DNA from: Bacilli bacterium
GTDB taxonomy: Bacteria; Bacillota_I; Bacilli_A; RF39; UBA660
Direction: 5' to 3'
Length of the DNA stretch: 64,000 bases
Assembly (NCBI GenBank): GCA_017544165.1
Contig: JAFYER010000005.1
Location: forward strand, 62,001-126,000
The translations under genes and the position numbers were made by a program. The number at the start of each line of letters is the position of its first letter. Position 1 is the first letter of the stretch. This document shows positions 52,245-63,760 of the stretch, piece by piece. The notes below the pieces were generated by a model. It was not told where the DNA came from and ran no database searches. It saw only the letters and a list, made by a program, of their open reading frames with translations.

Positions 52245-52763
52245 TTATTTTACAGGTCCAAGTTTAGTTATAGGCCATAGTCTAAATACTATCTTTCCAA
52301 CTATATCGCTTTTTGATATTAACCCTACTTTTTCATTACGACTATCAAATGAAAAAGTACGATTATCACTCATTAACAAATATTTATCATCAGGAATTTT
52401 TTCATACAAAAAATCTTCGGTTACATCTTTAGAAAGGAAAAACTCGTCTACATACTCGTCATTTACATATAATTTATGTTCCTTATATTCTATCTTTTCA
52501 CCCGGAAGCCCGATAACACGAGCTATAAAATGTTTGGGATCCTTATAACAAACAGAAACTACATCTTTTCTTTTAATATCACCAAAATGATACGAAGCTT
52601 TTTCGATTAATACAATATCATTATTACTTAAATTGGGTTCCATATAATCATTTGATACTTTTTGAAACGTTATTACAAATAAAAGTAGAAAAGCCATAAT
52701 ACCTAAAAAAAGAATAACTTTTATACTATCAAATAGTCCTTTTATTATATTTTTTAATATCAT
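52245..52763 (-). CDS. Inactive signal peptidase I homologue (pseudoenzyme)
   Basis: A 172-residue S26 signal peptidase fold: one N-terminal helix (about 13-32), then boxes B-E, all recognisable by their VIGLPGEKIEY and LMSDNRTFSFDSR segments. It aligns without gaps to the intact paralogue at 63236-63760, but the nucleophile is Tyr (Y40, where the paralogue has S40 in SSMKPT) and the general base is Ala (A81, where the paralogue has K81 in LVKRVIG). The codons TAT and GCT were checked in the DNA. Such a catalytically dead paralogue is known as SpsA in Staphylococcus. A binding or regulatory role is likely. It heads the operon with the cation antiporter. Confidence 0.9.
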   Translation of the reverse strand: MILKNIIKGLFDSIKVILFLGIMAFLLLFVITFQKVSNDYMEPNLSNNDIVLIEKASYHFGDIKRKDVVSVCYKDPKHFIARVIGLPGEKIEYKEHKLYVNDEYVDEFFLSKDVTEDFLYEKIPDDKYLLMSDNRTFSFDSRNEKVGLISKSDIVGKIVFRLWPITKLGPVK

Positions 52764-52821: not shown

Positions 52822-52854
52822 AAAAAAGCCAGCTTATCATCGCCGGCTTTTTTT
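52822..52854 (-). terminator. Terminator of the structured RNA
   Basis: The stem GCCGGC/GCTGGC (one G-U pair) lies between an A run and a T run on the minus strand, a strong intrinsic terminator. It is 30-odd bases upstream of the next promoter. Confidence 0.9.
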
Positions 52855-53198
52855 ACAAATATGCATTTAATTATAATCAGTGCACCAATTACAACCAAAT
52901 GTTTACTTCCAAATGGATTTTGATCTGTCCACCCCCATTACTTCCTATTTGTCCTTTTGATGGCTAATGGGTTTAATGTTCAATAATATACCATCTAGTA
53001 ACTACCATACCTTAAGTTTCTTAATATAGAATAATTATTTCTAATTACTAATATTATATAGCGCTAAAGCATTACTAGATAGTTGTTAACATACTATCAA
53101 ACATTAATGGAGTGCCTATCTTAACATTTTAATATCTCTATTAAAATGCCGTTCATCGTTATACAATGTTCAACTTTCGTATCTTCACCTTGTATAAC
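52822..53198 (-). ncRNA. Structured non-coding RNA, about 377 nt, unidentified
   Basis: A free-standing RNA with its own promoter and terminator and no ORF. Perfect or wobble stems: a 5' hairpin GTTATACAA/TTGTATAAC (53190-53198, 53158-53166); a 10-bp hairpin CATTTTAATA/TATTAAAATG (53139-53148, 53125-53134, loop of four); a long-range 9-bp stem ATCTAGTAA/TTACTAGAT (53072-53080, 52993-53001); and a 13-bp long-range stem with two G-U pairs (53095-53107, 52973-52985) nested around it. The last part is less clearly folded and holds GGGGGTGGACAG. It does not match tmRNA, RNase P RNA, SRP RNA, 6S or T-box by the hallmarks I know. Confidence 0.75.
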
Positions 53199-53204
53199 AA
53201 TTTT

Positions 53205-53233
53205 AATATATCATATGCAAAAATCATTGTCTA
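53205..53233 (-). promoter_or_regulatory. Promoter of the structured RNA
   Basis: TAGACA (53228-53233), exactly 17 bases of spacer and TATATT (53205-53210) on the minus strand. The predicted start, about seven bases downstream, falls on the first base of the 5' hairpin near 53198. Confidence 0.75.
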
Positions 53234-53276: not shown

Positions 53277-54101
53277 TTATTTATCATAAGTGTCGAGAAA
53301 GCTTACGTAACTACCATCTTTTTTATAACCTAAAACACAATTTAAATTAATATTATCAAGTGATTTAAATATATTATTATCAATTTCAGGATTCATCTTT
53401 CTTAAGTTACTTATCAAAAGCTTTATTTCTTTTCTCTTGCTAGATGTTACCTCTAAGTAGTTTTCAGAGGTAAACTTACAAGCACAATTTAAAAATTCTA
53501 AATTATTACTTTTTTGCCATGCGACAATAGCAGCTTCCTTTACCAAATATAATGGTCTAATTAATTCTATTCCTTCATAATTTTCACTATGAAGTTTTGG
53601 AAGCATTGTCTTAACTTCACTACCATAAAACATCGAAAGAAGTGTCGTTTCAATTACATCATTAAAATGATGGCCCAAAGCTATTTTGTTACAGCCAAGT
53701 TGTTTTGCGTAATTATATAAATGACCTCTTCGCATTCTGGCACATAAATAGCAAGGGCTTTGTGATGCTATTGCATCAACTGAAGCAAAAATATCCGTTT
53801 TAAAAATTTCTAAGGGAATATTTAATAATTTAGCATTATTAATAATCTTTTCTCTATTTTCTTTTTTATATCCTGGATCCATTGTAACAAAGTAGGCTTT
53901 GAAATCAATCTTACCATGTCTTTGAATTTCTTGAATACATTTAGCAAGCAAGAATGAATCTTTGCCACCAGAAATACAAACCATAATCTTATCCCCATCT
54001 TGAAGTAAATTATAATCTGTAATTGCCTTAGTAAATTTACGCCAAATATCTTTACGAAATTTCTTAATAATGCTTCTTTCAACTTCTTTATAAAATTCCA
54101 T
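53277..54101 (-). CDS. TtcA-like tRNA thiolation enzyme
   Basis: A 274-residue PP-loop ATPase. SGGKDS at 44-49 binds ATP; C117/C120 in SPCYLCARMRRG and the later C206/C208 pair (CAC) can hold the [4Fe-4S] cluster of the TtcA/TtuA family. GHHFNDVIETTLLSMFYG is the family helix. It probably adds sulfur to a tRNA base; cytosine 32 is the TtcA target, but the exact base is uncertain. It has only a weak ribosome site (AGTGA). Followed about 45 bases later by the ncRNA promoter. Confidence 0.88.
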   Translation of the reverse strand: MEFYKEVERSIIKKFRKDIWRKFTKAITDYNLLQDGDKIMVCISGGKDSFLLAKCIQEIQRHGKIDFKAYFVTMDPGYKKENREKIINNAKLLNIPLEIFKTDIFASVDAIASQSPCYLCARMRRGHLYNYAKQLGCNKIALGHHFNDVIETTLLSMFYGSEVKTMLPKLHSENYEGIELIRPLYLVKEAAIVAWQKSNNLEFLNCACKFTSENYLEVTSSKRKEIKLLISNLRKMNPEIDNNIFKSLDNINLNCVLGYKKDGSYVSFLDTYDK

Positions 54102-63235: not shown

Positions 63236-63760
63236 TTATTTTTTCTTCATAAAGCCAATTTTATTAAGGGGCCATATGCGAAAAATAGCTTTACCAATTA
63301 TGTCACTTTTTTGAATTAGTCCAACCTTTTCATCTCTACTATCAAGTGAGTCACTGCGATTATCTCCTAGAACAAAAAACATATCATCAGGAATTTTACT
63401 AAAAGAAAAATCCTCGGTTACAATATTATTTAAATAAGGCTCATCAACTTTAGAACCATCTACAAATAACTCTCCATTAACATATTCAATAGACTCTCCT
63501 GGTAAACCAATAACTCTTTTTACTAAAAATTTAGAATCAGCATAATAAAAAGAAATAATATCACCACGCTTAACATTTTTAAAACGATAACTAAGTTTGT
63601 CAAGTAAAACGATATCTTGATTATTAAGGGTTGGTTTCATTGAACTACCCACTATCTGCTGAAAACCAACGACGTAAATTGCAATAAGTAATACAACTAT
63701 TATAAAAAATATAAGTTTAATTGAATCAATAATAAACTCTTTTATATCTAAAAAATCCAT
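63236..63760 (-). CDS. lepB: Signal peptidase I, active form
   Basis: A 174-residue type I signal peptidase of the bacterial LepB class. One N-terminal helix (about 14-33), nucleophile S40 in GSSMKPT, general base K81 in LVKRVIGLPGE, and the boxes D/E (VLGDNRSDSLDSRDEVG-like) are all present. It removes signal peptides from exported proteins. It is preceded by a promoter almost equal to that of the inactive paralogue at 52.2 kb. The gene follows rpmF after a terminator. Confidence 0.95.
   Translation of the reverse strand: MDFLDIKEFIIDSIKLIFFIIVVLLIAIYVVGFQQIVGSSMKPTLNNQDIVLLDKLSYRFKNVKRGDIISFYYADSKFLVKRVIGLPGESIEYVNGELFVDGSKVDEPYLNNIVTEDFSFSKIPDDMFFVLGDNRSDSLDSRDEKVGLIQKSDIIGKAIFRIWPLNKIGFMKKK

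Follow-up and report, generated by a model that had tools for sequence, protein, structure and literature searches.

A covarying structured RNA family in Bacilli, partly located in recombinase elements, with palindromic loops that suggest self-assembly

What kind of RNA is encoded between two protein-coding genes of an RF39-order Bacilli genome (GCA_017544165.1, G000 below)? The 64,000 nucleotides analysed here (contig JAFYER010000005.1, positions 62,001 to 126,000; hereafter the window) carry a signal peptidase I gene (lepB, 52245-52763) and a TtcA-like PP-loop gene (53277-54101), both on the minus strand, and the interval between them had been read in a preliminary description as a stand-alone RNA with its own promoter and terminator. 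We placed the RNA gene on the minus strand, with its 5' end at 53198 and its 3' end at 52822 (377 nt), where the minimum free energy of the transcript was -104.1 kcal/mol (z = -7.7; 0/100 dinucleotide shuffles as good) against only z = -2.2 for the opposite strand. The -35/-10 pair with 17-nt spacing that had been described was present as TAGACA (53228-53233) and TATATT with TG upstream (53205-53210); a consensus scan alone does not lift this promoter above chance in such AT-rich DNA (17 sites vs 15.2 expected), and its position recurs in relatives, three of which (G187, G191 and G204) carry a TATAAT box equally far upstream and share GUU(G/A) at their starts. Measured from this recurring start, the two of these copies whose 3' ends are present are 375 and 384 nt long, compared with 377 nt in the window. 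The claims of a strong terminator and of no reading frame were likewise borne out: an intrinsic terminator hairpin with a U run lies at 52822-52853 (12 pairs, 95% kept in the family, 4 with two-sided changes), and the RNA gene contains no ORF that reaches 50 aa. The window also holds a second signal peptidase I gene (63248-63745), about 10.5 kb from the first and 49% identical to it, and a third is found elsewhere in the genome.

We then examined whether the RNA has relatives. A congener (G003) carries a copy with 69% identity, flanked by genes in the order seen in the window, and RNAalifold assigned to the alignment of the two sequences 94 pairs, none broken and 16 with two-sided compensatory change. 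A covariance model built from this pair recovered six further copies, from six additional genera of the same Bacilli family, down to an E-value of 4e-5, which brings the total to eight genomes in seven genera; at most three candidates per genome were scored among the 386 genomes sampled, and the count of 7/386 is a lower bound. The distribution is patchy, with copies in two of ten genomes of the window's genus and in one of 18 of the genus of G187. When the eight members were aligned by MAFFT rather than fitted to a structure, the structure derived from that same alignment comprised 78 pairs in eight helices, with 91.3% of 587 cells paired and two-sided compensatory changes in 44 of the 78 pairs. 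Sliding the partners by one to three columns lowered pairing to 40-44%, and none of 500 shuffles reached any of five covariation measures, a result in which independence is overstated because some of the eight sequences are close kin. One of the eight is cut short (G204) and another lacks its 5' end (G296). Covariation, which the preliminary description had proposed as a check, is strong. Model R2, which scores the RNA gene of the window at 237.9 bits (this being one of its training sequences), gave no match at E <= 1 in 646 kb beyond the family members. We regard this as almost certainly a real, conserved structured RNA family.

From 5' to 3', the RNA opens with the 9-bp hairpin that had been noted at the first base (P0, 53158-53198; 53190-53198 with 53158-53166), which was also seen by eye in relatives, where it was neither aligned nor counted. 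The second hairpin that had been reported is likewise present, with 12 bp in the minimum free energy fold rather than the 10 first given (P2, 53123-53150); its place is conserved and its sequence is not, relatives have shorter versions, and it was not seen in G102. The nested long-range stems that had been proposed are present too; the conserved helices on the 5' side are a long-range closing helix 1 (53109-53114 with 52904-52909; 93.5% of cells paired), helix 2 (53093-53107 with 52973-52987; two-sided changes in 9/15 pairs), helix 3 (53078-53083 with 52990-52996; 5/6 pairs) and helix 4 (53063-53073 with 53001-53011; 6/11 pairs). The alternative folding suspected for GATAGT/ACTATC is settled by the relatives, which pair 53093-53098 with 52982-52987 and 53078-53083 with 52990-52996. 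On the 3' side follow the P5 hairpin (52934-52971; 97.5% of cells paired), whose loop holds a conserved CAAAUAG motif (52945-52951), the P6 hairpin (52912-52933; two-sided changes in 6/7 pairs) and the P7 hairpin (52864-52901; 10/16 pairs), with a UGCA tetraloop that reads UGCA or UAUA in the six members ungapped there. Directly 5' of the terminator, the alignment shows a conserved segment, GCAUAUUUG (52856-52864), with no consistent partner; long-range pairing between it and the 5' end, suggested by the G003 fold, was rejected as inconsistent across relatives. There is moderate support for a candidate pseudoknot between the strand before helix 1 (GAU[A]GGC, 53114-53120) and the P5 loop (GCCAUC, 52959-52964): five or six of six pairs form in 6/8 members, with both sides changing (exhaustive permutation, p = 0.013); G000 reaches six pairs only with a bulged A, and G296 has only three. 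A Shine-Dalgarno-like AGGAGGUGAUG followed by a 12-codon frame in G187, and partly in G204, was discarded as a gene, being kept in no other member and falling in P2. The same AGGAGGUGAUG (locus L138, 5' strand of P2), complete only in G187, is complementary to the usual 3' end of 16S rRNA.

Three loop sites vary among members while remaining palindromic. Site A, in a bulge (GUUAAC, 53085-53090), is UUCGAA in G370 and palindromic in 8/8 members; site B, on the 5' side of an internal loop (GCGC within AGCGCU, 53061-53064), is GUAC in G370 and G102 and palindromic in 8/8; and site C, on the 3' side of the same internal loop (CUUAAG, 53011-53016), is CUAUAG in G191 and CCUAGG in G102, a palindrome in 7/8, with UCAUGA one column over in G370. 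Among gapless six-column windows of the alignment, only three had more than 43% palindromic rows (columns 67 and 152, and the P7 loop at 289), and the stem explains part of the UGCA palindrome of P7. Column shuffling gave p = 0.015 for site A, 0.037 for site B and 0.00015 for site C, values that ignore relatedness and apply to sites chosen after inspection, the variation itself coming from only three members (G370, G102 and G191). With the consensus fold imposed, the unpaired probability was 0.87-1.0 for site A, 0.69-0.86 for site B and 0.72-0.84 for site C, apart from 0.40 for site C in G191; in the unconstrained fold of G000, site C was only 32% unpaired. Within each member's own molecule, the only exact Watson-Crick partner of sites A and C is the site itself. 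Near neighbours within one loop cannot pair with each other, so that the natural partner would be the corresponding loop of another copy.

Palindrome switching in a loop also underlies the case for the B3 contact of OLE and the B8 contact of GOLLD, intermolecular contacts seen by cryo-EM (PMC12286853), and on this likeness we propose pairing with a second molecule here. Two traits of homo-oligomeric ornate RNAs are found in this family, namely a covarying complex fold, no ORF and a stand-alone gene, as well as loops that switch between palindromes, the last within a set of only eight sequences. Sites A, B and C would each pair with the same loop of another RNA copy to yield a homo-oligomer, three separate self-contacts would need a geometry that accommodates them, and the assembly might, as a guess, have a structural or scaffold role of benefit to the element or the host. 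We consider it probable that these structured RNAs form a new, partly mobile family whose members homo-oligomerise, with self-assembly inferred from the eight sequences. A more specific version, in which an ornate RNA clearly smaller than those known forms homo-oligomers through three separate contacts, made by the palindromes of the bulge and the internal loop, and travels as serine-recombinase cargo, is put forward tentatively, at somewhat less than even confidence.

The alternative that survives best is a structured RNA that functions as a monomer, with a bound protein or ligand or as a trans regulator, and keeps its palindromes for another reason or by chance. CAAAUAG and GCAUAUUUG, conserved without a fixed partner, look like binding sites, and the raiA motif, a large RNA found by cryo-EM to be monomeric (PMC12286853), provides a precedent. 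A sequence-specific binder, however, would not need sites A to C to vary and yet stay palindromic, and we hold the monomeric reading to be unlikely, although deserving of weight.

The copies differ in genomic setting. In G191, an element of about 10.5 kb splits a PBP2/SpoVD-like gene; the RNA is the first gene inside its left junction, followed by AbiEi/AbiEii, an mTERF-like protein, an 884-aa protein, others and a large serine recombinase, beyond which the PBP gene resumes with its second half. The same left junction, with the RNA following it, is found in G187 and G204, where the left ends alone were available for comparison. Large-serine-recombinase elements can act as carriers of the family. 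No such element is visible around the window copy, 5/8 members show no visible mobile element around them, and no recombinase was recognised beside the RNA among the ORFs annotated in G370 and G102. Around relatives of the PP-loop gene, 80 loci contained no RNA copy and did not show the lepB-RNA-ttcA order, so that no empty site could be defined. ROOL and GOLLD RNAs are known from phages and mobile DNA. Both are longer than the present RNA, and unlike them the family was not found in the collections searched: phage and plasmid DNA gave short chance matches at most, and pattern scans of viral contigs returned unrelated sequence only, none of it fitting the family models. The G191 recombinase had no relative in viral contigs either.

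These elements have further features of their own. The 884-aa protein of G191 (L145:12309-14963) shows a weak HNH_4 similarity, with only a marginal DUF7947 match above the Pfam cut-off. In G187 (L144:2888-4820), the same PBP gene is met, about 75 codons ahead of the RNA junction, by the end of another large serine recombinase, upstream of which lies a TraG/TraD-like coupling protein; apparently, two elements occupy one PBP gene. By eye, the frame of the G191 recombinase (L145:18426-20000, L146, L145:9735) ends inside the att site, and through the presumed circular junction it would run on as ...CCLINDTLTITRG..SKYTKKYDV..; this tail now sits detached at the left junction of G191, and G187 and G204 have one that resembles it. 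On this reading, integration would exchange the last residues of the recombinase.

The position of the RNA as the first gene in the G191 element, the junction common to G187 and G204 and the adjoining AbiE system in G191 could also mean that the RNA is a working part of the recombinase element, in integration, maintenance or defence, with the window copy as a leftover. We judge this very improbable, because in G000 and G003 the RNA remains folded, at 69% identity between the two, although neither copy lies in such an element; the lack of a recognised recombinase in G370 and G102, where the ORFs annotated are incomplete, also speaks against it.

A role as riboswitch or cis-regulatory leader for the gene that follows would fit the presence of lepB downstream in the direction of the RNA and the identical gene order in G003. 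Downstream genes nevertheless vary among members (AbiEi, an ASCH domain protein, a radical SAM protein and an adhesin-like fragment) rather than forming a conserved same-direction gene, the next gene in G102 is on the opposite strand, every copy with its 3' end present closes with a terminator hairpin, and lepB has a promoter-like site of its own after the RNA (11/12 matches). The differing neighbours and the opposite strand in G102 argue for a free-standing RNA, and the leader reading retains almost no probability. The locus is, from these features, a predicted non-coding RNA gene that stands alone, about 377 nt long and equipped with a putative promoter and a terminator of its own, in line with what had first been claimed. 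Beside the G370 copy and rpsI, we also observed a gene (L149:10131-11321) for an endonuclease-like protein with a DUF4379 treble clef and a weak DUF2726.

The preliminary description had left a choice between a new RNA family and a very divergent known one, with an Rfam scan as the check. No known class was found: the whole window had no match at gathering thresholds in Rfam 15 (4,227 families), relaxed E-values brought up short leader and sRNA models, mostly over the terminator and none near its gathering score, the six relatives' loci had no match at E <= 1, and the OLE, ROOL and GOLLD models matched neither the window nor the relatives' loci. The preliminary description had noted the lack of tmRNA, RNase P and T-box marks; the RNA is neither tmRNA nor RNase P RNA, which had no match in the window and are encoded elsewhere in the genome (G000:C5, tmRNA, 122 bits; G000:C11, RNaseP_bact_b, 277 bits). 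Size and multibranched shape would suit a strongly diverged representative of a described class (tmRNA, RNase P, 6S, SRP RNA, raiA, ROOL, OLE or T-box), a reading that is nonetheless highly improbable given the missing Rfam matches in window and relatives and the in-genome check, which covered RNase P and tmRNA. Comparison thus shows the family to be new to Rfam; a literature search yielded nothing that could be connected with the RNA, and absence from Rfam is not proof of being undescribed.

The closest known systems help to place the family. OLE is likewise a large ornate Bacillota RNA; it forms a homodimer with a symmetric kissing loop, and the palindrome of that loop switches from relative to relative (PMC12286853). 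It differs in its length of about 600 nt, in the lack of an Rfam match here and in the hairpin-loop position of the palindrome, those of the present RNA occupying a bulge and an internal loop. ROOL and GOLLD resemble it in being ornate and in having conserved intermolecular contacts, with 8 and 14 chains per cage (PMC12286853), although their Rfam models do not match. The raiA motif RNA is also a stand-alone structured Bacillota RNA, with an Rfam family of its own, but it is set apart by its monomeric state in the cryo-EM work (PMC12286853) and by the absence of a model match. HEARO and related omega RNAs have a similar length (HEARO, 343 nt) and occur in mobile DNA, whereas no IsrB, IscB or TnpB gene was recognised beside any copy of the present family.

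In 2025, OLE, ROOL and GOLLD were reported to assemble protein-free through several conserved contacts (PMC12286853). A smaller RNA of this type, in which several self-contacts are predicted, would simplify the study of the purpose of such assemblies and of their generality, and the RNA family described here is a ready candidate for Rfam.
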